Shown here in pieces: positions 4,310 to 64,000 of a stretch of 64,000 nucleotides of DNA; position 1 is the first letter of the stretch; every line of letters starts with the position of its first letter. Source of the DNA: Heterotrichella gracilis. Lineage: Eukaryota > Sar > Xanthophyceae > Tribonematales > Xanthonemataceae. A program made the translations under genes and the position numbers. The stretch spans positions 124,001 through 188,000 of the forward strand of contig JAULBX010026163.1 of the NCBI GenBank assembly GCA_032358255.1, given 5' to 3'. The notes below the pieces were generated by a model that was not told where the DNA came from, did not search any database, and worked only from the letters and a program-made list of their open reading frames with translations.

Positions 4310-4700
4310 CTGACCCGCCACCGCATGAGGGAGCGCAGCTTCCACCGATAGCCGCCCGCGCCCGCGCCATCGGCGCCTCATTGCGGCGGCGGCGGCGGGC
4401 CTAGAGATCGGGGTTGGAAATGTGCTGGACAAAGTTGGGGTAGTCCGCCGGAATGTCTGTGGCGGTTGCGATGATGTTGAGCAACGACCACCCCATCCTA
4501 GAACTGCCACCACATAAGGGAGCGCAGCTCCCACCGATGGCCGTCTACGCCCGCGCAGCATGGCGCCTCATTCCGGCGGCGGTGGCGACGGCGGCGGTGG
4601 CGGCGGGCCGTAGTCTGGCAGGTCGGGGTTTGGTATGGGCTGGACAAAGTCGGGGTGGTCCGCGGGGATGTCTGTGGCGGTTGCGATGCTCTCGAGCTTG
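4310..4700 (-). repeat. tandem duplication of the RbcX-like last exon
   Basis: About 4310-4490 and 4507-4700 are diverged direct copies. Both contain the GGAGCGCAGC...CACCGAT stretch, the proline-codon GGC/CGG tract and the segment encoding the end of the last exon. The copy nearer the gene (4568-4700) is open; the distal one is decayed and lies beyond the stop codon. Confidence 0.75.
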
Positions 4701-9117: not shown

Positions 9118-9650
9118 ATCAGCGCCTCAACCTCAACCTCATGCAACTGGTGGGTACAATCCTTGTCCATAATCGACAGAAATCAAATGACTTTAAGCTG
9201 CGATGAGTGCTGATCGGCTCCAATCGGTTCCAATCAGGCCAGCAGCTCCTGGATGAGCTCATCCGCGTCCGCCTCCGACTCCCGCAGCTTGTGCAGGTGG
9301 TACGTGCAATCCTTATCTGTGATGAATTCCACCTTGTAAAATTGGTCCCACCCCTTGCGAAGCAGCTGCCCGGTGCCCCGCGCAATCTTCTCCTTGTACT
9401 CCTGCACGCAAATAAGAAAAGGTATTCTTTAATCAACTGTAGAATACAATTTCAACCTCGTAGACCTGGTCCCACCCCTTGCGCAGCAGCTGCCCCGTGC
9501 CCCGAGCGCGATCTTCACCGTAAACCTATATGCAAATAAAGCATATTAGTCTTTGATATATTTAAAAATATTAAAAACCACCTTGTCGACCTGGTCCCGC
9601 CCTTTGCGCAGCAGCTGCCAGGTGCCCCACGCAATCTTCTCCTTTTAGTC
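9118..9650 (-). repeat. echoes of the GT92 last exon
   Basis: Besides the intact exon 9234-9401, decayed copies lie at ~9455-9530 and ~9575-9650 (both keep the codons for a KIAxGTxQLLRKG stretch) and at ~9118-9185 beyond the stop (similar to the CTYHLHKLR segment). The intact copy keeps phase and splice site. Confidence 0.8.
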
Positions 9651-12600
9651 CGTCAACACAACAAGTATCAAATTTCTGTAATGAGCAAAACAACAAGCAA
9701 AACAATTCTTCAATAAATTACATAATGCATCACAATGTACACATCCTCCCGGTCAGCAACGTCTTCTTTCCCGAGGCTAAGGGTGGGAAGCAGAGTGAAT
9801 GCTTGGGGATGTGCATGAATAACGCAAATCCAGTTGAAAAAGCCAGCCCATGTGGGCACAAAAGCTCCAGGAGCCACCCCCAGACATCTTGAAATTTCAT
9901 TAAAGCCACCTCCAGCCACCCCAAAAAGCCAACCAGATTTCAACAAGCCACTTCCAGCGACCTTTTTGCCCAAGTTTATTTCACAGTCACATTCAGGGAG
10001 CCAACCCTGGCTCACAAGACTGTCGCAGGTGCTCAATAAACTCACCCCCGTATATATTCATTTGAAATTCCAATATGCATGGACTTAAAATTCTAATAAT
10101 TTAAAAAAATATATTTTAATTACCTCGAACGACTTGGTGAAGTAGTGGTGCAGCGTGAGGCGGTTGAAGCAGGCGACAGAGCTGCGCGCGCCCTCCACTT
10201 TCTCCCCGCACGTGTTTTCCGAGTGCCAGCCCTCACGGTAGGTGAAGGTGTGGGGATTGCCCTCCGGGCGGATGCCTGCGGCTGTGTTGACTAGCTGCTT
10301 CACCTGCAGGGGAGGGTGGGGATTAGGGTTTAGGGTTTGTGCGCATCAGGACACGGGGGGAGGGGATAGGAAAATATGAGAAAGGAGGAGGGGGTTTGGG
10401 GGGATGGTCTCCGAGTGCCAGCCCTTGCGGTAGGTGAAGGTGTGGGGGTTACTCTCGGAACGGATGCCTGCGGCTGTGTTGACCAGCTGCTTCACCTGCA
10501 GGGGAGGGTAGGGATTAGGGTTTAGGGTTCATGCGCATCAGGACACAGAGGAGGGAGGGGAGGGGTAAGGTGAGAAAGTGGTGGTGGTGGCGAGGGGAGG
10601 AAATGGTCTCACAGTGCCAGCCCTCGCGGTAGGTGAAGGTGTGTGGGTTGCCCTCCGGGCAGAGGCCAGCGGCTGTGTTGACTAGGTGTTTCACCTGCAG
10701 GGGAGGGTAGGGGTTTGTGCGCATCAGAACATGCGGGGAGGGGAGGGGCAGGGGAGGTTTAAGATGAGAAAGGGAAAGGGGGGTGGGTGGGTGGGTGAGT
10801 GGGGGGATGGTCTCCAAGTGCCAGCCCTCGCGGTAGGTGAAGGTGTGGGAATGGCGGGGTACGTGCGGAGGCCAGCGGCTGTGTTGACTAGCTGCTTCAC
10901 CCTGCAACGAGAGGGTGGGGGGTTATGATGAGGCGATTGCGCGTCGGCAGGGCCCCTTGCAGCAGATGTGGGGGCGGGGATGGGGTTGGGCGAGGAAGGT
11001 GGCCATTGTAGGCATGCAAGGTGCCTCTTCAGCAGTGCATGAATTGCCAGCAGTGACTGCAGAGGGATGAGGGAGGGTGGGGAATGTAGCAAAGCTTTAG
11101 GGTCTTTAGGGTTTAGGTATAGGGTTTGCAACACAAAACCCTACCTGCAGGTTGAGCTTGCTCTCCTCCTTGGTGCACTTGATGTAATTCTTGAGCGTGC
11201 CCCCTACCGGCCGAGCCAAAAACCCCGATGACCCGAAAACCCTCCAGTTGACCGCAATAGACCCCAGGTGCTCGTAATCCTTGAGGATCGTGGGCACGTC
11301 TGGGGATTTGTCAAGGGGGAAAAGGAACTCGTCGGTGTCGATGAACCCCATCCACCTGCAGGGCAGAGGGTTTAGGGTTTAGGGTTCTGAGCAGGCACCA
11401 CAGGGTTGCAGAGGGTTTACGCTTAGGGTTTCAGCCAAAACCGAGCCAGCACTGCTCATACACCCACATTTCCAGGGCACAGACTTGAAGGTACGGTGAG
11501 GGTTCAGCCATTAAGGTGCAGTGTACAGGGTTTAGGGTTCCGCGGCACAGATTTGAAGATACGGTGAGGGTTCACCCATTAAGGTGCGGTGTTTAGGGTT
11601 CAGGGTTCACCTGTGCTTCTTGCCAAAGCGAGCCAGGCACTGCTCATACACCCACAGCTTTAGAGTCCAGACATTAAGGCATGGTGTTTACGGTTTAGGG
11701 GTTTAGGGTTCAGGGGTCACCTGTGATTCTTGCCAGACCGAGCCAGGCACTGCTCATACACCCTCAGCTTTAGGGTCCAGACATTAAGATACAGTGTCCA
11801 AAGTTTAAAGTTTAGAGTTCAGGGTTCACCTGTGATTCTTGCCAAACCGAGCCAGGCACTGCTCATACACCCACAGCTGGGGCCTGCCCTCATATGAGGT
11901 GAAGTACTCGTAGTGCACCAGGCCGGAGTCAATCCACTCCTGCAGCGGGCGAACAATTTAAATCAGGGGATTACAGGATGTTGAAGACAGTCACATTCAG
12001 GGCGCCGACCCAGGCCCACAAGACTGTTGGAGGTGCTCAGGGAATCAATTACAAAACGTCAAAATAGAGCAGTTGGTGATGTGTGAAGTGCTCGTAGTGG
12101 ACGAGGCCGGAGTCGATCCATTCCTGCAGGGGGCAAGGGGTGGATGATGGGGTGGTGTGGGTAGGTTTGGGGGGATGTGACGCAGCACACATACTGTTTA
12201 AAAACAGCAATTTACCCAGTAATTCACCCGCTCTCGGCCCAGCCCTGTCCCGGAACCCTAGCCAGAACCCTTACCTACAGCTCTGGCAGGTCCCTGCCTT
12301 GGGTCTTCACAAATCCCTAGAACACCCCAACCGCACACCTACAAAACCCTTGGAAAACCCTAGCCAAGACCATTACCTGCAGCTCTCCTTTCATCGGGAT
12401 CTTGCTGTGTGATCCCACACGTAGATCTTCCCCACCCCACCCTTTTGTGGTGCTCAAACCACCCTGGCAAGCCCCTGCTCTGTATTTTCACGAACCCTCA
12501 AATCCCCCAACGGTACGCCTAGAAAACCCTATATTACCCTCTATAACCCTAGCCCCAACCCTTACCTGCAGCTCTGCTTTCATCGGGATCTTGCTGTTGT

Positions 12601-15600
12601 GATCCCACACATAGATCTTCCCCACCCCCACCCTTTTGTGGTGCTCGAACCACTCTGGCAGGTCCCTGCCCTGGTTCTTCACGATGAGGCAGAGGGAGAG
12701 GTACTGGGAGGGGAGCGAGGAGGCGGCGGCGGCGGTAGTGGTGGCGGTGGTGGGTGCTTTGGTCCTGCGAGGTGGTGGGGAGTCGGTGGTGGGTGGGTAG
12801 GTCGGTGGGTGGTAGTTGTGCTTTCCCCAAACCAGGTGCATGTGAAAATCATATTTCCCAACGGTGGTAGATCACCCACGACATGCGGACAATCTTGGAT
12901 GATCCAAGGCCACTTCAAATGGTTTAGGGCCAGATTTGGATGATCCAGGGCAGTTTTGCATGGTCTAGGACATTTTTTGAAGGATCCTTGGCAATTGCAG
13001 GAGCTTCCCAATGCATCTGGCCCACATGACCATTACCACCCACCACTACACCCACACCCACACCCACACCCACACCCACACCCACACCCACACCCACACC
13101 CCACACCCCGCACCTTGCCCCCTGCTGCTTTGTAATCATGTCGGATACTGCCTGGTGTATGCTGCTCCCCCTGCCAAGGTTTTCCTTCCCCTTTGCAGCT
13201 GATCGCGCCCGGTTTCCCCCCTGGCCAAGCTCCTCATCCTCCCCAACCTTTACTTCCCCTTGGCCCAAGTTGATCGTCACCACCTGCAAAGATACAAATC
13301 CCATTATATTTGGCCCACTTTCTTACTGCACGTCAATTCAAAATCCCTTTTTCCATTGATTTCATAATAAGGGACACCAGTGCAGGCATGTCCCCGCCGA
13401 ATCCAAGATGAACTCTAGGGTTTAGGGTAAGCCTACAAACACTGCCTGGAGTTCAATCTAGTTGAGCCTACGACTACCGCCTAGGATTTAGGGTACAAAA
13501 CGCAGGCACGGATTAGGGTGTGGGGGGAAGGGTTCTGACGAACCCAAACCTTTCCCGCCCTCGCTCCCTGGCTGCCGCCTAGGGCTCAGGGTAAGTACCG
13601 CAAGCTGGGTTAGGGTTTGGGATTAGGGTTTAAGGTTAGGGTTTAGGGTGTATGCCCCCCACCTTTTCCCGCCCTCGCTCCTTCCGCTTGCGCCATCGCC
13701 GCGCCCGCCCAACACCACGCGTGCCCTTGCTTGCAGACACCCCACCAGCACCAGCACCAGCACCAGCACCAGCATCCGCACCAGCACCAGCACCCGCCCC
13801 CTCACCAGCACCGGTGTTCGGCTTGAAAGCCTTCCTTTTAGTTGTAGCACCAGCAGCAGCACCAGCCTTGTTCCCACGCCGCAGTTTGCCAGCGCTGGCG
13901 CCTTCCCGAGCAGCGCTGATGTGGTCGGAGGCATCACCAGCCTCAGAACCAGCCTTAGCACCAGCACCAGCCTTAGCACCAGCACCAGCACCAGCACCAG
14001 CACGAGGCTCAAGGGAGGAGGCCCCACCTCCCCTCCTTCGCCCCCTTGTGCCCACCTTGGCGGCTTCCCGGGCAGCGCCGGTGTATGCTGAGCCATCACC
14101 AGCCTCAGCACCAGCACCCGCACCAGGACCAGCTGCTAGGGAGGTCCCAGCTTGGTTTCCCCTCCGCACTCTGGAGGTGCGGGGGTTGTGTCCCCCCGCC
14201 CCCCTGCCGCCACCACCATCGAGGGACCTCTGGCGAGGGTAGGAAGACCCTAGGGTGTCGCCATTGGGTGCTGCCCGCATGGCTTTGGATGGTGCTTGCT
14301 TGTGGTTGGATGGTGTGTGGTCTCCAGAGGATGCTGCCTTGATCCTGCCAGCTGATGACGCCCGATTGCTAACGACTGGCACTTGATTGGTGTCATCAGG
14401 CTCCTCATCGGATGGTGTGTGATCGTCGTCGGATGGTGTGTGGTCGTCATTGGATGATGTCTGATCGGTATCATCTGGAGCCTCATTGAATGGTGTGTGA
14501 TCGTCGTTGGATGGTGTCTGCTCGTCATGGGATGATGTCTGATCGGTGTCATCTGGAGCCTCATTGGATGGTGTGTGATCGTCATGGGATGATGTCTGAT
14601 CGGTGTCATCTGGAGCCTCATTGGATGGTGTGTGATCGTCATGGGACGATGTCTGATCGGTGTCATCTGGAGCCTCATTGGATGGTGTGTGATCGTCGTT
14701 GGATGGTGTGTGATCGCCATTGGCTGGTGTCTGATCGGTGTCATCAGGTGCCTCATTGGATGGTGTCTGATCGTCATTAGATGGTGTCTGCTCGTCATTG
14801 GATGATGTCTGATCGCCATCAGGTGGTGTCTGATCGGTGTCATCAGGAGCCTCATTGGATGGTGTCTGATCGTCGGTGGATGGTATCTGATCGTCATTGG
14901 ATGATGTCTGATCGCCATCGGATGGCGCCTGATCGGTGTCAGCAGGTGTCTCACCATCACCAGACTGGACATCATCTCCCGCTGGTGCTTCCTCCCCCCT
15001 CCCTTCACCCCCATCCCCTTCCCCCCCTTGCTGGTCCCCTTCACCCCCCTCCGCCTCCCCCCCTTGATGCGTGTCGCCCCCCTCCCCCTCCCCCTGCCTG
15101 GTTTCCTCCCCTGAAGCCTCCTGTTGCTCCCCTTCTGCACTGTGCCCCCCGTCCCCCGCATCTTGCCTGGTTTCCTCCCCTGAAGCCTCCTGGTGCTCCC
15201 TTGCTTCACTGTCGCCCCCGCCCCCCGCATCTTGCCTGGGTTCCTCCCCTGATGCCTCCTCCTCCCCCTCATGTCCACTGTCGTTCTCACCCCCCGCGTC
15301 TTGCTTGGTTTCCCCCCCTGCAACCTCCTCCTCCCTCCCTTGTTCACTGCCATCTCCATCCTCCTCCTCTTGCCTGGTTTCCTCCCCTGCAGCCTCCCCC
15401 TCGCCCTCTACCCCCCCTGTTTCCTGCTCCTCTTCATCCTGATGCAACCTCCTCCCCTGCTGAATCCCCCTCCCCTCCTCGCCCCCTGCCGCTCCCAACT
15501 CACCCCCAGCATGATGCAATTCCCTCCCCAGATCCCGGTCTGTCTTCCGCCCCTGGCTGCTGCACCGGATGACGTCTTGGTGGAACCAAGGGGAGGGAAC

Positions 15601-24600: not shown

Positions 24601-25253
24601 AAGGCATGATAGAAGAAGCAAGGGGGGGTGAAGGACACCTCCCCACGGCTAGGACGTGGGGGTGGAGGGTTTTGTGAGGGTTTGCGGCAAGGCTGACTGC
24701 TCACCAGTACTGCTGGGATGCACGTGGCTAGCAGACTAGTATGTGCTTAGGAAAAGGGGGAGACGTTGTAGGAGCACAGGGAAGGAAAAGAGGGTTTGGA
24801 TGCAGGGGGTTGGGCGGAGGTGGGTGGGGAGCGGGGTGCGTGTGGTGTCAGGGGTTGCGACGCTGTGCACAGCTACAGAAACTGCGCACACTATAGGACT
24901 GATCCCAGGCCCTGACAACTACCCGTATCCAAAGACGGTATCAAACCAACCCAATGCATATGCATATCCCTGTAGTGCACACACTACCGCACTGCCAGTG
25001 GTGCAGGCCCATGGCAGCACGCAATGCACCACCCCTGCTGGGCAACACCAGCTCCAATCGGGACGCACATTTTGGTTTCGTGCCGTATTTTCTCCTCCCA
25101 GGTGGTGTCTGCAAGAAAGGACTCCTGATCCAGCCCCTCGTTCTCTACATACACCAAGGGCTCCCGCAGCGAGTGGCCGTTCTGTGCTTCGTCGGCAAGA
25201 TGGTGCAATCCCGAGGTCCCAGTTTCTGGCTGCCCATCCTTGGTCCTTGCCAT
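18678..25253 (-). CDS. MATE family multidrug/toxin efflux transporter
   Basis: Ten exons: 25030-25253 (3' border tentative), 24155-24350, 23832-23958, 23480-23589, 22846-23060, 22130-22403, 21293-21470, 20419-20576, 19282-19591, 18678-18883; ~665 residues. MATE proteins are 12-helix H+ or Na+ antiporters exporting organic cations or metabolites. Signatures: PLILQCFFNYAISLVSTVFVGHLGELEL and GMETLCGQAYGAGNYAQLG in the first half; WNGWTLKAFSGWGSYLRLALPATVM, ATSTRVANELGANQP, REVVDYTGQVLPWVALSLIPDG and ARFDWGAEA in the second. The layout is like plant DTX proteins. The hydrophilic C-terminal tail of ~160 residues is longer than usual. Exon 1 encodes a hydrophilic N-terminus from an ATG in CCATGGCA context; its junction to exon 2 is my best phase-correct guess. 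Divergent to the cupredoxin fusion gene. Confidence 0.95.
18945..19110 (-). repeat. two echoes of the MATE last exon start
   Basis: The acceptor-proximal part of exon 18678-18883 (GTGLATSLGASYPPAYNTTP codons) is repeated at ~18945-19010 and ~19055-19110, spaced ~115 bp, with TTAGGGTTTT-like spacers. Confidence 0.9.
19920..20335 (-). repeat. three echoes of the MATE exon 8 end
   Basis: Copies at ~19920-19985, 20098-20165 and 20265-20335 repeat the exon end encoding GMGVAGLWLGLNIATLLQ with its donor; the intact copy is in 20419-20576. Confidence 0.9.
20755..20805 (-). repeat. echo of the MATE exon 8 start
   Basis: Repeats the acceptor and the codons for GTLRGSGRQGIGAVTNT, upstream of the intact exon. 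Confidence 0.9.
21083..21215 (-). repeat. echo of MATE exon 7
   Basis: Diverged copy of most of exon 21293-21470 (SLGW.FASSREVVDYTGQV and LIPDGICNVLTG recognisable) with a small insertion; followed by its own donor-like site. Confidence 0.9.
21808..22030 (-). repeat. two echoes of MATE exon 6 end
   Basis: ~21808-21925 repeats the codons YIIFMLPLG.AAATSTRVANELGANQPGRAKTAML nearly perfectly; ~21970-22030 is a shorter decayed copy. Confidence 0.9.
22530..22715 (-). repeat. two echoes of the MATE exon 5 end
   Basis: ~22530-22625 and ~22645-22715 repeat the VGWxVVIERGRKGGEGRTWNG part of exon 22846-23060. Confidence 0.9.
23283..23430 (-). repeat. two echoes of the MATE exon 4 end
   Basis: ~23283-23335 and ~23365-23430 repeat the FAGAMECMRRYLMTQ part of exon 23480-23589 together with the donor. 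Confidence 0.9.
24435..24660 (-). repeat. echoes of the MATE exon 2 start
   Basis: ~24435-24525 repeats the acceptor and SQLLLAIPLILQCFFNYAISLVSTV codons; ~24575-24660 is a more decayed copy. Confidence 0.85.
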
Positions 25254-44974: not shown

Positions 44975-45125
44975 TACTAAATAGGGTTTAGGGTTTAGGG
45001 TTACGAGTTTTTTACGGGTTAGGGTTTAGATTTACCTAATAGGGTTTAGGGTTACGAGTAATTTTGTCCAATCTTCAGGATTTAGGGTCCATGCGTCAAT
45101 TTAGGGTTTTTTTAGGGTTTAGGGT
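44975..45125 (+). repeat. dense telomere-like TTTAGGG tract
   Basis: Many TAGGGTTTAGGG and GGGTTAGGG units, imperfect and interrupted; an internal telomere-like tract in the U-box 3' flank. Confidence 0.85.
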
Positions 45126-45153
45126 CCATGCGTCGACCTCCTCGTAAGGCGTA

Positions 45154-45360: not shown

Positions 45361-45509
45361 GTCATGCGATGCCCGTTTCCTTGCCGTCCTGCTACGCACC
45401 TGGCTTCGCAAGGATATGTAGCCAACAAAAAAGGCACCTCTGTCACGGTACCACTCCTCAGCGGGACTCGGTCTCACCCAGGTGGGCTGACAAGCGCGTG
45501 GAACGACTT

Positions 45510-45592
45510 GGCGAGGTAGCTGAGCAAGTAGTGCGTCGCCCTGTCCGGGTAGACGGGCGCAGCGAGGTCCAGGTTTGATCCCCGGTCGCCCC
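45510..45592 (+). mobile_element. tRNA-like module, possible SINE head
   Basis: GGTAGCTGAGC resembles a pol III A box and GGTTTGATCCC a B box, about 55 bp apart. GGCGA at the 5' end pairs with TCGCC at the 3' end, and an anticodon-arm-like hairpin lies between. It is too imperfect for a working tRNA; a tRNA-derived SINE or tRNA relic is the best reading. Confidence 0.4.
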
Positions 45593-46742: not shown

Positions 46743-49700
46743 TCAATCAACATCCAACGATTCTGCAGAGAAATGGCCTCCGCAAGGGGTGTGTGACAGC
46801 GTCACAGCTGTGGGAAAGTTGGCGTCCAAGGGGGAGGCGGTATGCATGTGTAGGTGAAGGAGAACACACGGGGGGTGCCGGACTGGCGGGCCTCCCGGTC
46901 CAGGCGCTGAAGCAGGGTGCGGGCAGCCATCTGGGGGAGGAGGGGGGGTGACAGGGATTGAAGTTTTTAGGGTTAAGGTTCATGCGCTGTAGGAGGACCA
47001 ACAGCCCAAATGGACATGTTTTATAGTGGATCACACAATTGAAGTGTTGGAGAAGTGCCTTTGAGCCAATGACATGAATCATACAACATGCCCCAGGTAT
47101 AGGCACAATGTACACCCACTGTGGATCCCCGCCCATCCCCTCCCCTCGCCTCCACCCTCACCCCCCACCCCTCACCTGCGCCTTGGGCGGCAGCACCACC
47201 CCCTTCCCTCCCAGCAGCTCCAGCAGCCTCCCCCTCACTGCATCCCCCCCTTGGGCCTTGGCCTCTGCCTGCATGCGCTCCAGGGCCGCGCCATTGGTCG
47301 ACAGGTTGTGGAGGGCAGATAGGGCGGGGAGGAGGATGGCAGGGTTGGTGGAGGGGAGGAGCTGCGGGTGGGGGAATGGGGTGGTGAGGAAGGATGTATT
47401 TTGGTTCTTGTAAATAGTACGGTGTGCTTGATTGGGTGCTTTCATTTCCCAAACATCTTAGGGATGCTGTTTAGGGTTTGGGTTGTTGGTTGCCAGGTTG
47501 TGGCTGGCGGTGGAGGCGGGAGGAGCATGGATGCCCTCCACACCCAGCCCTCAGCCCCACACCCACCACACACAAACACCCAAAATGCAGACATCTCCTC
47601 CTTACCCACCCCATCGCCCCACCTGCAGCAGCGCCCCCACCGCCCCCGCCTGCACCACCGCCCCACTGGGGGTGTGGGGGCACATTGATGGGCCCCCCTT
47701 CCTCCCCCCAATCCCAAACAGGTTGCCCCCCCCCTTGGCCCCCGCACCACACTCTGCACAGGCGGCCTGCCTGGATGCCACCAAATGCGCCAGGGCGAGG
47801 GCGGCTAGGGTGCGGCTCTGGTCGCCTGCAGGGCAAAGGGGTCATAGGGTCATGCACTAGTTTTTTTTTTTTTTTTGTTTATTTGGATTCACATAATTAA
47901 AGGGAGGAACGCTGCAGGGTCCTAGGATTTACAGTCAGTCAGCCAAAACAGATGTCTTGGATCGGTCACCGCACCAGGGTCGCAGAGGCTAGCAAGGCTA
48001 GGGTTTGTAAGGGTTCTGCTGAACCATATTTCATACGCCACTCACATACTCACACCCTTCAACTTACACCCTAATTATGGGTTCTGCTATCCACCGCTTT
48101 TGCTAGGGTTTTGCTAGGGTATCTAGGGTTTTCCCCCCGCGCACCTCCCTCCCGCAGCATCTCCACCAGCCCCCCCACCACAGCCCCCCCACCCCCACCA
48201 GTCAGGGTGTGGCGGATGGCCTCTACCGCCCCCCCGCTGCCGGCCACCGCCCCCCCCTCCCCCCTTGATTCCTCGTGGCACACCTGGTGGATGAGGCCGG
48301 CTGCCATATCGTGGGCCATGGGGCTGTGAGACATGGGGCTGTGAGACAAGGGGGAAGTACATAAGTCAGTGCAATTTCCAGCATGGTAACTGTGAGTGGG
48401 TGCATGGATTTCAGACCCCTTCTTTCTAAGTGGAAAACAGTGGCATTGTGGGGTATTGCCTGCCCCAGCTCAGCAGCCAGGGATGAACTTCATGACGTGG
48501 CCAAATGGTGGCTGCTGCCGGCTGCCATGTCATGGGCCATGCGACTGTGGGACAAGGGGGTAAAGGCATGGAGAAATAGTAAGTGCATGCCCAGTGGTTT
48601 GAAGTCAACCCCCAAATCCTATGCGTGACTCCAGCCAAGCCTAGGGTTCTGTCCACCTGTGCACACATGCAGCTGATGCCCTATGCATGCTACCGCCTAC
48701 ATCTGTGTGAACCCTAAAACCCTGGTATAGGGTTTAGGGTTTTGCGCACCTGCCCTGTGCAAACATGCAGCTCAGGCCCGGCAGCAGTCCCGGGTTTGAA
48801 GCCAGCCCCACCACCGCCGCCGGGTGGGTTCCCCCTGTTTTGTGATCGTGCGCCACCTCCCACAGTAGCCAGGCGGCGTACTCCTGCCCCTACAATTGAA
48901 CAAACACATAAATAAGCAAACAAACATACACGAAAAATATATCCTTATTACCTTCAAGAATGGCATTGATTGATGGGATTTACCACGCATATGCTGATGA
49001 TGGCCCAGCATTACATAGGATTGTGCCTGGTGACTCGATGCGCAAGGGTGATGGGGCAGACAAACTTACCACTCCCTCACCAAAATATTAGCCCATTCCA
49101 AGCATAAACCTAGCCAAAAAAAGCCTTACCTGCCCCGCCACGCGCCCCATCGCCCCCAGCATCTCCTGCACAATCTCCCCCTGGTTGCCCCTGTTGCTCC
49201 ATAGCGCAAGGGTGGCGCGAGACGATAAAAACCTCCCCGAAGCGGAACCCTTGTCTAGGGCAACCGCCAGGGACCTGGGAACGCCAGTCCCGGGGGTGGT
49301 AAAGGATCCCAGGACATCCTCTGGCATCTTATCGGTGAGCATGTGGGTGAGCGCTGAGAGGGCCTCAGCCTGCAGGGTTTGGGGTTTTAGGGCTTTACTT
49401 TCAGCAAGAGGGGGCATGTGGCTGCGGCAGGTGTGGGTGGAGTCTCAAGCTGCTGTTTGATGTTGCAGCTGAAGCTAAGCGAATTCCTCAAAATGAATGG
49501 TATTTGACTGTAATTTGCTCAGCGATGCTCATTATGCCCATGACTTGAGACATGGCAGCAGAACTACACACAGAGCACAACTACACAGTCTGAACACGAA
49601 ATACCATCCATCCATGACATGGGTAATTACACCCGCTACGCACCTCGCCTGTCGACCCTCCGCTCGCCAGGCCCCGCATTGCTGCCAGGGGATTTGTGCC

Positions 49701-52700
49701 CCCCCCAGTGGCGGCCCCCGCGCGGCACATCTCGCTCAAAATGTCGATTTTCGTGTTCCAGTGGTGCCACCCCAGGGATGCCAGCGCCATGGCTGCGGCG
49801 TGGCGGGCTGGGGGGTTTGGAGAAAAGAGGAGGAACACCAATCGGGGCAGGCCTTGATGTTGTACCACCTGTAGGCAGAGGAGGTTTTTGTTAGGTAAGC
49901 TGGTCTAGTCAAAATGCAAAAGCATGCATGGGATTTGTCGCTCAAGGTGTTGCTTCTTGAGTGACGCATGGGGATTTGGTGTTCTCCACAAAAGCATGGG
50001 ATTAATTGGGCATGCAAACTATGTGATAGGGTCACAATAAAAAGCCAGGGACACTGCTGGAAGGGTGCCCCCCTCGTCCCCCACCACACACCCACCACCA
50101 TCATCACCCACCCACCTCCATGCATGCCCGCTCCCCCAGCTGCGCAACCCTCTTTAGGGCATTGGCAGCATGCCGCTGGCACTCCGGCTCACTGGGATCC
50201 GCCAAGCACCCCACCAGCAGCGCAACACCGCCACCTGTCACCAAGATAGATACCATAAATACATATGTATTGTAATTTGCTTGATCAATTAAGGCAACCA
50301 TATCTCTGTTGCTCTTAAACTTTCTTACTATCAGGTAAGCTGAAGCAAAAGCAATGTGCATGAGGAAAAGGCGGCATTGGTTTTAGAGGAAGTACCACAA
50401 AGGGGTGCGTATTACCCTCACCTGCCAGCACCTCCTCCCGACAGCTGGCATCGCTCGCCAGGTCAGCGAGCTGCCACACCAGGTAGGATAATATGGACTT
50501 GTAGGCGGTGGAGGAAACGTCCTCGGAGCGCAGCCGGGCTAGGGTTTCCTGAAGGAGCGGTAGGGTAATTAAATTGGGTGTGGATGGATGTAGGGGGCAA
50601 ATACGTCACTAAGGCCAGGATCTCTCGTGGAATTCCGGGAAAAAGGACCTGCTTGATCCTGGTTGTGCTATACCCTCGCAAGCCCCATAACCTAAACTCT
50701 AGGGACTTACCCTAGTCAGCGTCAGCTTGTCCGCCCCGACGGGCCGCTCCGCCGGGTTAGGGTACTGCCCAAAACCCTCCTGAGGCCCCTCCTCCCCCGC
50801 TGGAGATCCAGTCGCCCCCCCAAGTTGGGGGTACCCATACGCCCCCACTGCGTTTCCATACCCGTACCCCCCCAGAGGTTGCGTGAAGGAGCCGGTTGGG
50901 GTGTTAGGGTTTTCAAACGAGTAGGCGGTGACCCCCGAGGAAGGGGGGGCATCGTCCAGGCCCCCAGAAGGGGAGGTCGCTTCGAGGATGGTGGAGGGGT
51001 AGCGGGTGTGGTGCGCTTGGGGGGCACCTGCGGATAGGGTTTAGGGTTTTGGTTGGGGATAAGTTAGGGTTGGAAGGGTATTTAATTGGTATCAGGTGGC
51101 AAGAGCTGGGGCTGGTGGCGGGGCAGTTGTGGAGATGGGGAATTTCCTCAAGAGTTTTGGTAGCTTGTTATTTAGGGCTCGAGGGTTTGGGAGAAGCGCC
51201 TACGTCGACTCATGAGTCATTTAGTAATGACTAATAGAGGAATTTTGCCTCAGACCCTAAACCCTGAAGCCTACGCATTGCCCACAGTCAACAGCACAAC
51301 CCAATTCCCCCTTCAACCATTCCCCCACCCACTCACCCGCATCGCCACCCACACCCCCATCCTCCGACCGCGCCAGGGGGGTTTGGTACGCCGAAAAGGA
51401 GGGCAGGGAGGCCTCCCTCTCCTGGGTGGCGCTGGCGCGGGTCTTGAGGCGCACAAGCTTGCGGCGCGGGGGCTCGTTGATGTTCACCTGAAAGGAGGCA
51501 AATTGGATTGAATTAAGACCTGGTGGGGTTGCAGGATCCTCTGGTAATATCCCTGAAATTACAGCAAACAGTCGTTACAGGATTTTGGTAGATGGCAGTG
51601 TGGCTTTGAAAGAAAACTGATGCATGGGTGGTGCATGCCCGCATGGCTATATTTTTGATAACATAACAACACAGCGGTGAAAAGGGCTACACATGCCAAA
51701 AGGTTAGGTTTCTTTCTTTCTTGGCACATTGGTGCATCAGTCAATACCCACCTTGTGGCGCTCCGCCCATGAATAGATGAGGCTCTTGGGGATGTAGTTG
51801 GGCACCAGCTGGGTGAAATGCAGCTCGGTGCCAGTCAGGGGGCACATATTACTCTCTAGTAACATAATTTCCCCATCTTGTAGGGTCGCTGCAAGGGTTT
51901 TGGCAATGGTTTCCTAGGGTTTGGCACCCACCTTGTGCCGCTCCGCCCACGAGTATATGAGGCTCTTCAGGATATAGTTAGGCACTAGCTGGGTAGCGTG
52001 AAGCTCGGTGCCAGTCAGGGGGCACATGTACTCACTTTGAATAGGATTTCCCACTTCTAGGGTTTTGGCCAGAAGATCCTAGGGTTTCCAAGGGTTTTGC
52101 CCCCCACCTTGTGCCGCTCCGCCCACGAGTATATGAGGCTCTTGAGGATGTAGTTAGGCACCAGCTGGGTAGAGTGAAGCTCGGTGCCAGTCAAGGGGCA
52201 CATCCTACTCCCCTCCTCAAGCCATTTCTCGATGTTCTTGCGGTCGTAGGTTTGCCCTGTAATAGGAGCAACAGGCAGCAACAATGGGTTGTCACAAGTG
52301 GGATGTATCATGACAACCTTCTGCTGATGTGTCACTACCTGCAACCCAAGTGTACCGCCGCAAGGCGTACCATGAATGCATTTGTGATAGCACGTGTACT
52401 CATCTACATGATATAGATGAGTCACATGCACTCCAATTGAACAGCAAGGCCTGGCAAGGTGTTGTCAGTCAGCCATGCACATGCGGCGCCAAGCAATAAT
52501 GTGGTCCAGGCACTGCCATGTCATTTTGCCAAAATGGCGGCGCCGCTGCTTGTACATCCATGTCCCTTGCTGGAATCACGAGGAACAGCCTGGGTACTGT
52601 TAATGCTCACCTGTTTCCACCAGGATCACTGGATCTGACATGAGCTCCTCACTGATTGGACAGCACAGCTCCTCAGGGGGGAGCACGTCATGGGAGTGCT

Positions 52701-53996: not shown

Positions 53997-56578
53997 ATGG
54001 AGGGGTATCGGGTGCCCCCAAAGCCACCAGCCAAGCGGCTGCAGCTGAGCGTGCAAAGCAAGAAAGCCATATGTGACCTACGGGCCTCGAACCCATGGCT
54101 CACGCAGGAGGACCTGGTGGTGCTTATCTGGCGCAGGCTGGGGCTGGACCTTGCCCGGGGTACCCTGGTGGGGGTGCTCAAGGATGCTGCCAAGTGGGAG
54201 CAGCTGGATAGGGCGCAGGTGGGTGGGTGTAGGATGCAAGCATTCCCGCCAGTTTAGCAGGATATGTTACAAGGTGAGCGCTCGCGGTTTAGCCTTGCAT
54301 ACAGGTGCCTTGCTCGCAGTAAGAAACATGGCCTCCAACCCTAAACCCAAAATACCCTTGTGGGGTTCCTCAAGGTCGCTGCCAAGTGGGAGCAGCCTGG
54401 ATAGGGCGCAGGTGGGTGGGCGGTAACATATATAGGAAGGTTGAAAGTCAACCTTTTTGTGCTTATAGGGTGCAGGCGGGTCTGTACTGACACTGCTCAT
54501 ACCGTTGGTGCCCCCAGGAACTACAGTCTAACTTCTAGTATAAGCGCGTGAAACCCTACAACCCTAAACCCTCGTGGGGTTCCTCTGCCAAGTGGGAGCA
54601 GCTGGATAAGGCGCAGGTGGGTGGTGTTGCTGGTTATATGGCAAGATTTGGCAGTCAGTCTTCCAATCATACGGGTCTGTTCTGTTTCAAGCAGGGTTCC
54701 TGACATAGGTCGTACCATTGCATGCCCGCACTGACTAAATCCCCATCTCCACACCCTGCACCCTATACTCTTGTGGGGTCTCAAGGACGGAAGGTTCAGG
54801 AACTGGCCGCCTGAGAAGCTCCGCAGCGCAAAGTACCCGATAACGTACCGATACAGTACCCAGCTGGCACCGGCACTGCTCCGGCGGCGCCAGCAGTGCA
54901 CTCCATAGCCCAGCCAAACCCCACGAAACCCTACCAAAACCCTACTGGACATGCCCCTAGCTGGGAGTGGCACGTGCTCCTGTGTACTAGCAGGCCAGCG
55001 CCAGCGATGCACTCCATAGCCCCACAAACCCTACCAATACCGTACCAAACCCACAAAACCCTACCAAAACCCTACCAAAACCCTAGAAACCCTGCTAGAC
55101 ATAACACCAGCGTGACAGTGGTTCATGCTGCCGCAGGTGACTTCAAAGAAGCTGCGCAGCGCAAAATTCCCGCAACTGGAGCAGGCTTTATTCCTGTGGT
55201 ACCAGCAGGCCAGGGGTGCACCAGGGCAAGCATATTCAGCCATACCCTGTCAAACCCTACCAGACCCAACCCTTCACAAATGCAGAACGATATTATTATT
55301 TTCAGTCCAATGATTGACACACAGGTACCCTGATCTTGCACACCATGATCAGCGATTATTACATGCCCTGCAGGTGACTTCCAAGAAGCTGCGCAGCGTA
55401 AAGTACCCGCAACTAGAGCAGGCGCTGCACCTGTGGTACCAGCAGGCCAGGGGTGCAGCAGCCACCAGCAACACCCTGTCGGACGCCCGCCTGCTGGCCC
55501 AGGCACAGACCCTGGCTAAGGGTTTCCCTGACATCCCCGACGCAACAGGTGAGGCCAATCTTAACTCTCCTCAGTTTTTGCTTAGAGGGGATATGTAGAA
55601 GTGGTGGGTGGCCGTGGTATGTACCACGGTTGCCACTCGCGCAGAGAGGTGCCCTGCATTCCCCTCCAACGTTGTAATGCCAACATTTAATTTGTACTAC
55701 ATATACATCAGTACAAGATACATTTTGTATTATTCTAAAGTCTACTTAGTTACTTACGCAATATGATTTCTCCTGCAGAGCTTAGTGCTGGCTGGCTGCA
55801 ACGCTTCAAGCAGCGCCACCACATAAGCACCGCTGCCAGGCAGGCGCATGCGCAGCATGCAGCGGGTGAGCCCAGTACCGGCGAGCCCAGCATCAGTGGT
55901 GACACAGGCGTAGGTGGCGGCACCAGGGCGCTGCCAGAGGGCTCAACCAGGCATGGGCATGTGCAGCGTACAGCTGGTGGGCCCAGTACTGGCGAGCCCA
56001 GCACCAGTGGCGGCGCTGCGGGATTGGCTGGCATCCAGGGGGTGCTTCCTCAACCGCCCCCCCGGGAGGCCAGCAACAGCGCCACCAGCCGTGCTCAGGT
56101 GCAGCCCGCGGTGGGTGTGCCCAGTGGACTGCCAGGTGGCGACCCAGGCTTAGGCGGCACCCAAGGGGTGGTGCCGGAGGGCAACGGCGTGGACCCCCCT
56201 GCTGCGCACGTGTTGGTTGCCGAGGCGTTGGAGGTAGAGACTGTGGTGGGGGTGCGGGGGGATGCGGCGGGGCAGAAGAGTGCAGAGGCTGTGGTGGGGG
56301 CTGTGGTGGGGGCAGCGGGGGTGGAGAGTGCGGAGGAGCAGGGGAGTGACAGGGATGATGATGATGGTTTGGTGTACCCCAATGACGTGCAACCCCCGGT
56401 GGTGTCCCTGGCCCAAGCGCGGTTTTGCGCTGAACAGCTGATGCAGTTTGTGCAGGGCCAGCCCCACTACCCGGTGGAGTTCCAGCACTGGATGAGTAGG
56501 ATACAGGGCCAGATAGACAGCGACCTCGCCGCTAGGCTGCTGTCACAGCGAGCGCAAACCCTAAACCCTAAACCATGA
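53997..56578 (+). CDS. CENP-B/pogo-type DNA-binding protein lacking DDE domain
   Basis: Three exons: 53997-54218, 55374-55548, 55779-56578; 398 residues, phases 0 and 1. Residues ~12-74 are a CENP-B N-terminal helix-turn-helix (KRLQLSVQSKKAICDLRASNPWLTQEDLVVLI...GTLVGVLKDAAKWEQL). Residues ~75-150 are a second HTH of CENPB/Tnp_Tc5 type (LRSVKYPQLEQALHLWYQQAR...LAQAQTLAKGFPD...SAGWLQRFKQRHHIS). The usual DDE transposase domain of pogo/Tigger elements is absent. Instead there is a Gly/Pro/Ser-rich region, an acidic patch (SDRDDDDG) and a short helical end (VSLAQARFCAEQLMQFVQ), similar in place to the C-terminal helices of domesticated CENP-B relatives. A host chromatin or transcription factor derived from a transposase is inferred. 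The last codons read through CCCTAAACCCTAAA. The start is the second of two ATGs 4 bp apart. Confidence 0.85.
54355..54622 (+). repeat. two echoes of the CENP-B-like exon 1 end
   Basis: ~54355-54422 and ~54570-54622 repeat the AAKWEQLDRAQ codons and the GTGGGTGG donor of exon 53997-54218; both have lost frame. Confidence 0.9.
54790..55250 (+). repeat. echoes of CENP-B-like exon 2
   Basis: ~55130-55250 is a close copy of the start of exon 55374-55548 (VTSKKLRSAKFPQLEQALFLWYQQARGAP) with a good acceptor. ~54790-54905 and ~54985-55020 are decayed fragments. Confidence 0.9.
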
Positions 56579-58525: not shown

Positions 58526-61500
58526 ATGGAGCGGGGCCCCTCCCCCTCCCCTCTCACCCGCTCCCGCCTACCCCCCCTGCTGGCCCCGGGGGGGTACACC
58601 CGCCACCTGGCGCCACACACCTTCTCACGCCGGAATCGACCCCGGGACATCCCACATTCAAACCCTCGGCCAACCACCACCGTGAGCGCACAGGCATCCA
58701 ATGACACTCAGCCCACCCCCACGCCCAGTCCCCACACCGCCACCACCACCACCCCCGGGCTGGACCAGGCGGCCCGGGTGGTGTGTGGGGTGGCGCTCTC
58801 CCTGGCAGCGGTGTGGTTGTCTTCCCCTGCCCTGGCGGCTGCCGTTCAGGAGGTAGCGGCGCAACAGGTGAAACCCTAGACCGTAAAACTTAACCCTAAG
58901 CCCTAAACAGGGGCAGTGGCTGGATCTGTGTAACAAGTAGGCAAAAACCTGGATAACCCTAGAAAATACACCTGGATGTAGGGTGGGGTGGCGCTCCGCC
59001 CTTGGCAGCGGTGTGGTTGCATTCCCCTGCTGGCGGCGGTGGTATAGGAGGCTGGTGTGCAGCTGGTCTGGGGGTCTCTCGCATCGCAAACCCTATGCAA
59101 AACCCTAGGCACTAGGCTGTGATTTGTAGCGGGTGCTTCATGGCGGGGATGTGGTGCTTGGTGAGGTGCATGTTATTGAAGGCCTGGGGTTTAGGTTTAC
59201 GTTGGAGGTAGTTTAGTGCCCTCCTTAGGGTTTAGGGTTTTGGGTTTTGGGTGTGTGCTTCCTGTATCGGCACAGGCGCGGTTCCACCGCAACCCTGTGC
59301 AGGGTTTCGCCTTGACCGGGGGAATGCGAGAGAGGTCTACTCCCTACCATAGCTGTGCAACTGACACCGAGCGTAACCCTCAACCAGAGCGTAATCCTAA
59401 AACCCTAAACATGACATGGAGCGTGTCCCTCGCACAGGCTCCCCCCACCGCACCCCCCGCCGCCGCACCGCCAGGGGAGGAAAGCAGCGCGCAAGCAAAC
59501 GGGGAGGATACCCCCGGCCCCAGCTCCGCAGCCCCTGCAGCCTCTCAGAAGGAGGTTGTCAAGGGGGAGCAAGCCGGTGCCAAGGCAGAGGGGAAGGAAG
59601 GCGGGTTGTCCATCGGGCAGCTGCTGCACCAGTGGATCGCGCCCGCGCTGGGCGGGGAGGCTTCGCCTGGCGACAAGCCCGGGCCATTCGAAGCCTCCTC
59701 CGCCGACCACAGCAAGGCGATCGGTCCCCTCCCCTTCCGCCTCTCGGTAGCAGACTCCCCTTCCCCCGTCGCCTTCCCTGCGGCTGCTAAAGGGGAGGGT
59801 GGGGCGGGAGCGGCCCCTGCAGTGGGGGTCAAAGCCTTAGGCGAGGGTTTGGCCAAGCCAGGGGAGGACAGCGCCAAGGCAGGAGAGGTATGTAGGTTTG
59901 TGTGTACCTTGCCTGTTGCCCAAAGGGTTCACGTTCATAGGTTAGGGTTTACTGAGTGGTTAGCTGACCACCAGGCTTGATTTGCCACTCTTGCCATCTG
60001 AGCAAATAATATAAATGGCCCCTACATCCTCGATAGGTGCGCATCACATGGGGCACATGCAGGGGCTTGGATTTAGGGTTTAGGGTTCAAAATGATGCGT
60101 GGAGTAGCAATATGCTATGAGCAAGGCTGCATTCTCATGCCGCGCCATTGAAACACCCAACCCATTCGCTCCCCTTTCCGCTCCCTGTAGGCCGATGCCT
60201 CGCCCGAGGGTGGCGCGGTGGATGCCCAGGCGCAGCAGCGGGCCACGCTCGAGGCTCGCAAGCAGTTTGAGCAAGCCGAATTACCTGCCTAAACCCCCAA
60301 ACCCTAGGTTTAAAACCCTACTGGCATGAAGAGCCTGGATTCCCAAGCCGCGCCAATGCACCACCCAGCCCATTCACCCCCCATTCCACTTCTTGTAGGG
60401 CGCTCCCGCAGATGAGGCGGAGGGTGGCGCGGTGGATGTCCAGGCGCAGCAGCGGGCCACTCTTGAGGCTCGGAAACAGTTTGAGCAGGCTGAGCTGGCA
60501 GCTCTGAGGCGGCAGCGGATGGAGCTTGAGGCCAGGAGCAGGGAGCAGCAAGCGGGTGAGGGGGTGCATGACAATATGTTATATGTAACTAGATTGTGCA
60601 CAATAGTATAATGCTTGCCAAGGAGAAAATTGACAATAGATGAGAGGCGAGGCTTAGTAGCAGACTGGTCCACTAAACTGCTTATTTTAATGCAATGCAG
60701 CGGTGAAGCTGAACAATCACATGCGGAACCACATGTGCAGTGCCATCTATGCCCGAGTCAGCCTGCATTCACCACTAGGGCCACATGCCATGCAATCTGA
60801 ATTCTCAGATGCCGCCCCCATTCCTGCTCTATATATGTCAGGCATTGCCTTTGCTTACTGTTGTAACCGATTCCCACTTTCAACCAGGTTTGAAAAAGCA
60901 GCAGGAGGTGGCTGCGCAGCCACAGCAGCAGCCGGAAGCAAATGGTGGCAAGCAGGTGCTTGACAAGGAGGCATTGGAGCAGGCTGCTGGCAGGAAGAGG
61001 CTGGAAGAGCTTGCTGCTGCCCAGAAGCAAGAGGACGAGGCTGCTGCTAGGAAGGCGCAACAGGAGGAGATTGCTGCCAGGAAGGCTCAGGAGGAGGAGG
61101 TTGCTGCTGCTAAGCGAAAGGCAGAGGAGGAGGCTGCAGCCAAGGTCAGGCAGGAGGAGGAGCTTGCAGCCAAGAAGAAGGCAGAGGAGATTGCGGCTCA
61201 GAAGAAGGCAGAGGAGGAGGTTGCTGCTAAAAAGAAGGCTGAGGAGGAGGCAGCTGCAGCAAAGAAGGCTGAGGAGGAGCGGATTGCAGCTCAGAAGAAG
61301 GCAGAGGAGGAGAGGATTGCTGCTCAGAAGAAGCAAGAGGAGGTTGCTGCTCAGAAGAAGGCAGAGGAGGCAGCAGCAGCCAAGAAGGCTGAGGAGGAGC
61401 GGATTGCTGCTCAGAAGAAGGCAGAGGAGGAGAGGATTACCGCTCAGAAGAAGCAAGAGGAGATTGCAGCTAAGAAGAAGGCAGAGGAGGCAGCAGCAGC

Positions 61501-64000
61501 CAAGAGAGCCGAGGAGGAGAGGATAGCTGCTCAGAAGAAGGCTGAGGAGGTCGCAGCCAAGAAGAAGGCAGAGGAGGAGGCAGCAGCAGCAAAGAGGGCT
61601 GAGGAGGAGCGGGTTGCTGCTCAGAAGAAGGCAGAGGAGGAGGCAGTGGCAGCCAAGAAGAAGCAAGAGCAGGAGCTTGCTGACAAGAAGGCTGAGGAGG
61701 AGAGGGTTGCTGCTCAGAAGAAGGCAGAGGAGAAGAGGATTGCTGCTGAGAAGAAGGCAGAGGAGGAAGCAGCCGCAGCCAAGAAGGCTCAGGAGGAGAT
61801 TGCTGCCAAGAAGAAGGCGGAGGAGATTGCAGCGCAGAAGAAAGCAGAGGAGGAAGCAGCAGCGGCCAAGCGGCAGCAAGAGCAGGAGCTTGCTGCTAAG
61901 CGGGCTGAGGAGGAGAAGATCGCAGCTCAGAAGAAGGCCGAGGAGGAGAGGATTGCAGCTGAGAAGAAGGCAGAGGAGGAGAAGATCGCTGCTCAGAAGA
62001 AGGCAGAGGAGGAGGCAATAGCCAAGAAGGCTCAGGAAGAGCTTGCGTCGAGACAGAAGCAGGAGCAGGAGGTATGTGCGCTAGTAATTTAACTGCATTT
62101 GCAGTGGTGCGGCCAAATGGGCAGTCAGCCTTGAAACCAGCAAGCGCATTGTATGCTATCCGCCGTTCAATGTTGCTTGTTTACCACAGAAATTACATGA
62201 ATTAGGGCGATGGCGTGCACTACGCTGCACTACACATGTGCACCTTGACCACCTCTGACTGAGATCTGCACTAGCCCCATTTTGTGTTGATGTACACAAC
62301 CATTACACAGCTACATCAATAAAGTCAAGTGAAAAATAATTAATGTTATGGTCTTTGCATCAAGCAGGGGTTTGCAGCAGAGTTACAGAATTTGGTGCGT
62401 GCTTCACAACCTTACAACAAAATCTACGACGTAATCAATCAACAATAGGAAAAAGTGAGACATCCTGTGTTTTGCTTCAAGCAGGAGATTGCAGCCAAGC
62501 AGCGCGCTGAGGCCGAGGCTGCAATCAAGTAGAAATTGATCATTACAGAAAGTGATGAAGTGGAAATAAATAGGGATATTTGATTAACACTGTGTTTTGC
62601 TTGAAGCAAGAGATTGCAGCCAAGCAGCGGGCTGAGGCCGAGGCTGCAACAGAATCCCCAAAATATGCCGCAAAATAATCAAGTCGAAATTAATCAAATA
62701 GAAGTTAAACAAGCAGAAATATATAAGTAGAAATATGTAACATTATGCGTTTGCATCATGCAGGAGATTGCGGCCAAGCAGCAGGCGGAGGCCGAGGCTG
62801 CAGCCAAGCAGCAAGCAGAGGCCAAGCTCGCTGCTCAGGCGGAGCGGGAAGCACTGGAGGCCAGGAGGCTCCAAGAGGAGGCTGCCGCCGCTGAGCGGGA
62901 GGCGGTGGAGGCCCAGGCCAAGCTGGAGGCGGAGCAAGAAGCAGCGCGCATGCAGGAGGTAGGGGTGAGCACTCGCCACTGCGTGACATGTGTTTGAAGT
63001 GCATTTTCCACTGGTTATGGATTGCGCTGCATCAACGGCCAAATCTTCTCCTGGCGAATAATGTACCCCCACAATAAAGCCAGTTTTCATGGACTCCGAA
63101 TATGATTGTTCTTACATTCCCTTCAGGAGGCTGGAAAGACTTTGCAATGGGAAGTTTATAATGTCTTTACTTATTGATGCATTTCCCTGCAGGAGGCTGC
63201 TGCCGCCAAGGCCGCCGCTGAAGCCAAGCGGGCAGCGCAGGAGGAAGAGAATAGGATGAAGGAGGAGGAGGAGGCCCGTGTGCGTGCACAGACAGAGGCT
63301 GCTGAGAGGGCGATGGCGGAGGCTGCCGCTGCTGCGAAATTGGTAGGGTAATTCATAAACCCTAAACCCTGCATAGGATTGCCAGCGGGGCCAGCCAGCG
63401 GGCAATACGTGTAGAGGAATTTAATATGTTGATTGCACAAGCCATATGCTAGTAGGATGAAAGTTGCCAGGTCAGGAGTGCATAGGTTGGGGCGGCTGAG
63501 ATGGTGATGGCTGCGGTGAAGTTGGAAGGGTAATCTACAAACCATACATCTTGAGACTGCTGCTGCCAAACTTTCTAGACGCAGCTAGTGGGCAATGCAT
63601 GTAGAGAAATGTGACCCTGTGGATTGCACAAGCCATTAGAAATGGAGGCTGCCTGGGCGCTAGTGCATAGGTGGAGGCGACTGAGAGGGCGATGGCTGAG
63701 GCTGCAGCTGCCGCAAAACTGATCAAGGTGTTGAAATACTGCCGCTCCTTCCATATCGGAGCTTCAATCAATCATGTTGAACTGTGCTTGCAAAATTCTA
63801 TATGGTTTAGGGTTTAGGGTTTCTGGACAGGTTAAAAGTCCTCGAGCGTATGTGGGCGGTTGTGTGCTGCACTGGGCACAGGTTGGCGATGAACCCCGGC
63901 CTAAACCCTTCTCGCCCCCGTTCCTCCCTCTGCAGCGCGACGCCCAGTTCCAGAAGGAGCTGCAGGAGACCTCTGTCCAGGTGGACCAGGCCCTGGTGGC
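58526..64000 (+). CDS. thylakoid-targeted coiled-coil protein (partial, 3' cut)
   Basis: Exons: 58526-58867, 59438-59887, 60399-60555, 60888-62071, 62764-62958, 63193-63342, 63936 to the window end; >840 residues, phases closing. No family recognised. Exon 1 encodes a Ser/Pro/Arg-rich plastid transit region followed by a hydrophobic segment ending SSPALA-A, the form of a bipartite thylakoid-lumen presequence; no twin-Arg pair is seen, so Sec-type import is more likely. Exon 2 encodes an Ala/Pro/Gly-rich region with one amphipathic patch (LSIGQLLHQWIAPAL). From exon 3 on, residues ~265-830 are almost continuous Ala/Glu/Lys heptad-like repeats (EERIAAQKKAEE units), predicted to form a long single helix or coiled coil like TolA or caldesmon. 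The coding repeats at 61010-62060 are tandem. A structural or tethering role is a guess. Confidence 0.78.
58970..59065 (+). repeat. echo of the coiled-coil gene exon 1 end
   Basis: Repeats GGGTGGCGCTC...TGGCAGCGGTGTGGTTG and the end of exon 1 (the thylakoid signal region), frame lost. Confidence 0.85.
59255..59300 (+). repeat. possible echo of the exon 2 start
   Basis: CGGCACAGGCGCGGTTCCACCGC resembles the acceptor and start of exon 59438-59887. Confidence 0.5.
60185..60292 (+). repeat. echo of exon 3
   Basis: Close copy of the start of exon 60399-60555 (EGGAVDAQAQQRATLEARKQFEQAEL) with a TGTAG acceptor, ending in a stop; phase-compatible, so it could be a mutually exclusive or poison exon. 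Confidence 0.9.
62483..62650 (+). repeat. two echoes of the exon 5 start
   Basis: ~62483-62532 and ~62607-62650 repeat AAGCA(G)GAGATTGC.GCCAAGCAGC with acceptor; the first ends in a stop. The second has AAGCAA before the repeat, losing the CAG acceptor. Confidence 0.9.
63490..63728 (+). repeat. two echoes of the exon 6 end
   Basis: ~63490-63535 and ~63670-63728 repeat the AAERAMAEAAAAAKL codons and donor of exon 63193-63342. Confidence 0.9.

Follow-up and report, generated by a model that had tools for sequence, protein, structure and literature searches.

Local copies of exon edges in Heterotrichella gracilis: probable relics of recurrent small tandem duplication, often with the telomere repeat at their seams

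We present here an overall view of exon echoes, that is, partial local copies of exons standing close to the exons that they resemble, in a stretch of 64,000 nucleotides from the xanthophyte Heterotrichella gracilis (contig C365, positions 124001 to 188000, below called the window) and in further parts of the same assembly (68.5 Mb, 903 contigs). Our analysis indicates that the echoes are probably relics of recurrent small tandem duplications which have afterwards decayed. They are local and direct, mostly keep to one geometry and differ in age, and the telomere repeat of the genome is enriched at their seams; this last link is an addition to the earlier note on the window, in which the echoes were first described. 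The data set is 325 kb in 21 sequences without any N, consisting of the window, which was chosen for its interest to a reader, 90 kb of contig C320, and 19 pieces picked non-randomly at regular contig-number intervals, one of them from the same contig as the window. The gene models, including the choice of the true exon copy, come from a simple gene finder trained on these 325 kb. Its splice signals are plausible (acceptors TGCAG/G, donors like CAG/GTGAG) and the predicted H3 and H4 models look correct by eye; some echoes are also called exons, so that the counts depending on the finder are biased toward exons. Pfam scans covered models from which the echoes were left out, and six of nine are above the cut-off (GT92, MatE, SURNod19, UBA, U-box and a Tc5-type DNA-binding domain) while three are below it. 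The MatE and U-box domains are continuous without the echoes.

On the whole, self-BLAST matches with E<=1e-5 and less than 1.5 kb apart, which we take as local self-matches, number 233 in direct and one in inverted orientation in the 325 kb. The window alone has 96 direct pairs in 42 clusters against one inverted pair, two self-palindromes being excluded from the count, and with other clustering settings 40 of its 45 clusters touch a predicted exon, so that the echoes are real and local, as had been claimed. Among 131 clusters in the 325 kb, 91 cover exon and edge, 15 exon, 5 lie inside an exon, 12 are intergenic and 8 intronic. Local repeats include 173 of 598 predicted exons, and 67 of 129 in the window, which is well above the more than 25 exons of the first description, partly since the finder calls some echoes exons; at least one repeat-bearing exon is present in 34 of the 57 predicted genes that are made up of four exons or more. 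The exon-bearing blocks of spaced pairs (n=110) contain one exon edge in 66 cases, a whole exon in 16 and the inside of an exon in 28, and in the one-edge blocks the medians are 50 bases of exon and 11 of intron, near the 40-130 bp at one exon edge noted before. Sets of up to five copies are confirmed as well: the largest, at 42691..43148 on the minus strand, has the 5' edge of an exon (42691-42743) and four echoes upstream of it. No local self-match is found in 8 of the 21 sequences. The pieces L005, L007, L008, L017, L018 and L021 are without local repeats and all except L017 have predicted genes; such repeat-free pieces are mostly poor in TTTAGGG also, L018 being the exception.

In total, 3.69% of the predicted coding bases have a local noncoding copy (3.13% excluding the window). 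This far exceeds the figures given in a study of tandem exon duplication, where exonic bases with an 80% copy amount to 0.08% in fly, 0.06% in worm and about 2% in human (PMC9013439, excerpt), though the methods differ and the comparison is a rough one. As in the excerpted part of that study, exon-like copies adjoin exons; unlike there, the copies here are mostly of partial exons. For annotation it follows that decayed copies of exon edges, retaining coding signal and splice sites, are readily called exons.

We curated 73 pairs in which only one of the two copies continues into the exon, and 69 of them, from 11 of the 21 sequences, keep one direction rule: 38 copies of a 3' edge lie downstream and 31 copies of a 5' edge lie upstream, while 4 of the 73 break the rule. 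This is the geometry of tandem duplication across a splice junction. The median spacing between copies is 190 bp (5-95% range 89-384), arrays of three or more copies run head-to-tail with similar unit lengths, and full head-to-tail tandems make up 42 of the 141 nearest pairs. The earlier note knew of no standard element class behaving in this way; the direction rule, the arrays and the simulation of tandem duplication given below account for most of what was seen, and the need for a new class aimed at exon edges is not supported. Nor are dispersed mobile elements found to be involved, since non-local matches within the 325 kb touch none of the 73 echoes and one of the 73 spacers. When a 1.6-kb U-box stretch was compared with the whole genome (five candidates scored), it had matches only outside the echo array, at 447-911 of the query. 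Sequence shared between unrelated copies, as expected of an introner or other transposable element, was thus not seen in the 325 kb.

We then ask whether the exon edge is special; the earlier note implies that exon edges are over-represented in local duplications. By random placement of 93 spaced pairs, 45.3 exon-involving pairs are expected and 74 are seen, which bears this out; for the same pairs the expected and seen numbers are 18.3 and 8 (intron-only), 21.9 and 8 (intergenic), and 7.5 and 3 (within an exon). The 47 full tandems give 29.3 expected and 35 seen exon-involving cases. Most of this bias can be explained by differential decay in our model. Mismatches between echoes in four arrays are 58 of 503 in exon-like parts versus 111 of 426 in intron-like parts (sums over non-independent pairs), suggesting a roughly twofold rate in introns. 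With such a rate, simulated tandem duplication yields an exon-to-other ratio of 117:24 for spaced pairs (seen 74:16) and 200:70 overall (seen 109:25), spaced pairs among the exon-involving ones being 117 of 200 compared with 74 of 109 seen; the median intron part is 16 bp (seen 11) and the exon part 65 bp (seen 50). These values are from one of nine simulation runs, with a setting picked after the data were seen. A special targeting of exon edges is thus mostly dispensable once the intron parts decay about twice as fast.

The copies are of various ages. Their divergence ranges from 2.5 to 26%, with significant heterogeneity among 69 pairs (chi2 145, 68 df), showing that the duplication is recurrent, as was proposed at the outset, and ruling out a single burst. 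An artefact of assembly, with two diverged haplotypes or misjoined reads placed side by side, is hardly credible. None of the 94 spaced pairs is at least 98% identical, which would agree with it, and young copies may be collapsed, but this range of divergence, the frameshifts, the multi-copy arrays, the direction rule and the lack of any N speak against it. As to the state of the echoes, the earlier picture of one intact copy with the others drifted holds in part. Of 73 echoes, 26 have a frameshift and 12 a stop, making 32 broken by either, while 41 have neither over their short length; the donor GT or GC is retained in 28 of 30 echoes, and the acceptor AG in 22 of 29 echoes and 26 of 29 exon copies (59 mapped splice sites). 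We infer that most echoes are dead.

Selection or use might instead maintain them, as alternative or mutually exclusive exons or as decoy splice sites, which we consider unlikely. The unbroken echoes and the kept donors would agree with it, and so would the differences of the copy at 21,813, which are mostly synonymous by hand count. Spaced pairs with both copies called exons differ chiefly at third codon positions (.073/.072/.211, 32 pairs), suggesting that some copies are or were in use, or that the finder favours clean copies. Pairs with one copy called exon give.110/.092/.217 (50 pairs), near the expectation for a neutral copy plus synonymous change in a constrained exon. Besides the broken echoes, what disagrees with maintenance is that most blocks carry a single splice site, whereas duplication of mutually exclusive exons would involve the whole exon with both splice sites. 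In addition, the MATE transporter of the window, whose best named relatives are green algal (41-46% identity), aligns in its echo-free form with seven algal homologues, and these have no repeats.

The telomere repeat of the genome is TTTAGGG, which forms perfect arrays in the correct orientation at the starts of several contigs (C70, C140, C526, C609, C717, C770 and C824 among the matches listed) and also internal arrays, such as that of C95 at 24,514 of 111,353 bases (again among the matches listed), with 50 forward and 51 reverse matches in all. Among the 7-mers of predicted introns, rotations of AAACCCT are the most frequent, and they come top among those enriched in echo-bearing introns; over 32 pieces (L017 omitted) the density of clusters is correlated with motif coverage outside the clusters (rho.64). 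We define the seam as the place where the echo starts inside exon sequence, oriented on the curated pairs; leaving aside the 4 pairs breaking the rule and 10 with an unmappable edge gives 59 seams. Over the 30 bp that border the seam on its outer side, motif coverage is.192 versus.051 in nearby noncoding sequence, exceeding all 200 control draws (maximum.085), and a telomere 7-mer lies within 30 bp of 30 of the 59 seams versus 17%, with none at the other 29. The enrichment replicates in three sets of loci, namely the window (.180), C320 (.175) and the other loci (.213). Pooling pairs with exons excluded leaves a weak signal, the spacer being above the flank in 29 and below it in 21 of 84 (p.008); it is the orientation of the seams on curated pairs that makes the signal strong. 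Where the spacer is shorter than 70 bp, the tract takes up about a quarter of the interval inspected beside either copy; at 70-110 bp coverage at the seam (.050) is below that of the exon side (.138, 12 pairs), and at 110 bp or more the values are.204 (seam side),.099 (exon side) and.073 (middle), from 33 pairs. Introns without echoes also have the motif after the donor (.062), so that it is partly a general intron feature.

If telomerase had added the repeats, the G-strand should run outward from each broken 3' end, and this strand rule is not found: the first 20 bp after the left copy have G.065 and C.068, and those before the right copy G.089 and C.079. Read along the gene strand, the spacers of 5'-edge pairs favour C (C only in 15, G only in 3, neither in 14), perhaps owing to the pyrimidines required near acceptors, and those of 3'-edge pairs show no single type (G only in 12, C only in 8, both in 5, neither in 16). 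The seams thus share with interstitial telomeric sequences made by telomerase the repeat at the junction, and not the strand rule. On the 12 of 69 junctions that were usable, the four bases that follow match in register at.58 vs.297, which is suggestive.

Since about half of the seams are telomere-marked, break repair at or with such tracts may be the cause of the duplications. In the scheme that we propose, a small direct duplication would have one end point inside an exon and the other in the adjacent intron; the copy joined to the remaining exon would stay functional, and the copy stranded in the intron would decay. The intron parts of the unit would decay faster, shrinking old duplications to an exon-edge match, and because exons decay slowest within the unit, old duplications would come to resemble exon copies. 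The initiating breaks would probably lie at interstitial telomere-like tracts or be filled in with their help, for example where the overhangs of staggered breaks are filled before end joining. More tentatively, intronic telomere tracts might seed local duplication through the enzymes that process telomere ends, either telomerase or CST with Pol alpha-primase; these would copy the neighbouring exon edge, leave a telomere-marked seam and so drive intron growth over the genome. We see this as possible though on balance doubtful, the step from such seams to CST or telomerase as the responsible enzyme being an inference. Should the link to telomere repeats be true of young events, the genome would be a natural record of small tandem duplication at breaks, and telomere end processing would be tied to intron growth.

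A rather improbable alternative is that a staggered break was filled on both sides, X becoming X-filler-X', with a filler that is often telomere repeat and a spacer that did not arise at any time by copying the local intron. It agrees with the fact that 64 of 76 pairs with noncoding spacers have no significant homology between spacer and flank (12 have), with the in-register matches, and with the placement of the motif: coverage is.188 at the seam and.149 beside the exon copy, drops to.045 halfway through the spacer (36 spacers), and is.077 past the echo and.048 at the corresponding far end. It is opposed by the full tandems, by local alignment, which detects homology of spacer and flank in 19 of 60 pairs versus 6 in the control, by the motif in introns without echoes and by the missing strand rule; moreover its one-clock simulation produces too few exon-involving pairs (302:410 to other pairs) with overlong intron parts.

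Duplication followed by decay, which we prefer, has its own difficulties. It leaves the TTTAGGG at the seams unexplained, and a tract present before duplication should recur at the far end, where the low coverage just given is found. The single-clock models fail: neither the 302:410 above nor the 492:365 of the other simulation reproduces the data. The twofold rate is not shown to hold generally: in the SURNod19 array, one of the four, the intron-like part is not more diverged, and introns of paralogues can still be aligned, with 21% divergence and 80 gap columns, which also weakens a candidate explanation by generally hypervariable introns. Simulated spacers are recognisable as flank copies in 29 of 90 cases versus the 12 of 76 seen, and for blocks of at least 90% identity such homology appears in none of 12, versus 4 of 13 in the simulation. 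The many echoes free of frameshift and stop should be counted here too. In a four-copy array at 42299..42654 (minus strand, unit 99-103 bp), three exon-like 51-mers (42398-42654) are identical while the intron-like parts are 12-23% different, suggesting gene conversion between exon and echo, or constraint. Finally, the choice of the true exon and the gene models depend on the in-house gene finder. All of these weigh against our explanation.

Several known systems resemble the echoes, the sources being used in excerpt. In mammalian cells, fill-in by CST and Pol alpha-primase makes small tandem duplications at breaks (PMC8355091); the duplications are small, direct and tandem as here, and the filling complex is one of telomere maintenance, but telomere-repeat seams are not described in that excerpt, and the units here are longer than the overhangs of 49 bp used in one of its designs. 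Interstitial telomeric sequences at mammalian breaks have flank duplications at 6 of 130 rodent and 4 of 25 primate sites (PMC2246262, excerpt). They share with our case the telomere repeats at repaired breaks and the flank duplications, and they have microhomology in register, for which the signs here are suggestive; however, those sites were selected for telomere repeats and duplication is rare, whereas ours were selected for duplication and lack the telomerase strand rule. Repair-mediated duplication of nearby DNA in vertebrates includes exons and splice sites, similarly to the echoes (PMC2671141, excerpt), yet there the copies were found as insertions into transposable elements, on average about 1.2 kb apart, in place of direct copies with a spacing of about 190 bp; that work excluded tandem cases lying within 50 bp, and an inverted exon copy is described. 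In proximal capture the acceptor is separate from the donor. Our copies are direct and adjacent. In potato, a duplicated stretch spans an intron-exon boundary (PMC4974935, excerpt), which is the same class of geometry and raises the idea that tandem duplication of an exon piece containing AGGT creates introns, the echoes being a by-product of intron birth. We regard this as very improbable and largely refuted, because the boundary-to-boundary match which marks a new intron, a donor matching its own acceptor, is present in only 3 of 522 predicted introns here. In algae, no report of telomere-marked exon-edge duplications was found in the literature searched, an absence which proves little.

Below we report the remaining loci of the window. 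On the minus strand, the 3' end of the first long gene model has a direct repeat pair (4305-4482 and 4494-4697, together 4305..4697) with 75% identity. An exon piece occurs three times in 9246..9675 (at 9329, 9451 and 9578), with an in-frame stop in the 9578 copy. An exon edge of the GT92-like gene forms a four-copy array with a TTTAGGG tract (10218..10927, unit about 192-200 bp), followed by an array of echoes of an exon 3' edge (11438..11939, exon copy 11810-11878, units 68-110 bp), by an 88% echo of a 5' edge at 12083..12134, upstream of its exon piece 11899-11950, and by a GT92 exon 3' edge (12464-12684) whose echo at 12283-12493 has two 1-bp gaps (12283..12684). The last part of the MATE gene model contains a three-copy tandem array (18822..19151, unit 112 bp), and another MATE exon edge (20414-20487) is accompanied by three downstream echoes (19921..20487). 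Near these are a 90% echo at 20745..20823 of the 5' edge of exon piece 20522-20601; a 3'-edge echo at 21062..21215 of exon piece 21264-21409, with a 14-bp insertion and a TTTAGGGTTT-like tract directly before the seam; and two echoes at 21813..22030 of the MATE exon edge 22125-22235, where the 93% copy has 9 differences, 8 of them synonymous (hand count). Copies of the exon piece at 24279 lie at 24443..24634. Still on the minus strand, a UBA exon piece (34857-34948), whose echo-free model has UBA_7, is echoed at its 5' edge at 35027..35118 (86%), the 3' edge of exon 41825-41943 at 41451..41529 (86%), and a U-box/ARM gene exon (48145-48338) partially at 48496..48559 (82%), while the U-box gene exon edge 52103-52210 has two downstream echoes (51746..52210, unit 176-180 bp).

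On the plus strand, the SURNod19 exon 27381-27464 has a partial echo at 27592..27637 (87%), and an exon edge of the SURNod19 gene with three downstream echoes makes up the array at 28860..29171 (unit 91-94 bp), which has a TTTAGGG tract. The exon starting at 30781 has a 94% echo of its 5' edge at 30567..30654, where the homology of the 111-bp spacer to the flank is not significant (z 1.2), and the 3' edge of exon 31343-31471 recurs at 31505..31551 (94%). Two echoes of an exon-1 edge (54161-54227) are found at 54353..54624 with a CCCTAAA-like tract before each. The exon starting at 55374 is echoed at its 5' edge at 55133..55224 (88%), the exon 58526-58867 has a frameshifted partial echo at 58983..59051, and an exon 5' edge pair at 60124..60493 (80%) includes 67 bp of intron. 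In the list for the window, no direct pair belongs to H3, to H4 or to the gene at 37.2-38.8 kb.

Some further observations were made. The gene at 53997-56578 has the Tc5-type transposase DNA-binding domain and is possibly domesticated; a scan of a piece of 161 residues gave no further Pfam domain. The sole inverted local pair is a copy of an exon edge at 6342-6601 (73 bp, 94.5%) beside exon 6565-6674, where a hairpin is possible. Two near-palindromes at 19765-19888 and 38316-38431 (124 and 118 aligned bases) are possibly small hairpin elements. The last exon of the U-box gene has a relic 2.2 kb off (44603-45000 and 46808-46978, 85% identity), which is locally repeated too. A dispersed repeat of about 600 bp with internal tandem copies links 45145-45723 with positions 3844-4428 of piece L013 (81% identity), and a short one (88%) is seen at 9983-10035, at 11987-12039 and at 214-272 of L021, in predicted introns and elsewhere. 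In addition, a coiled-coil-like gene model contains a coding repeat rich in Glu, Lys and Ala at 60951-62072, with units of 27-120 bp.

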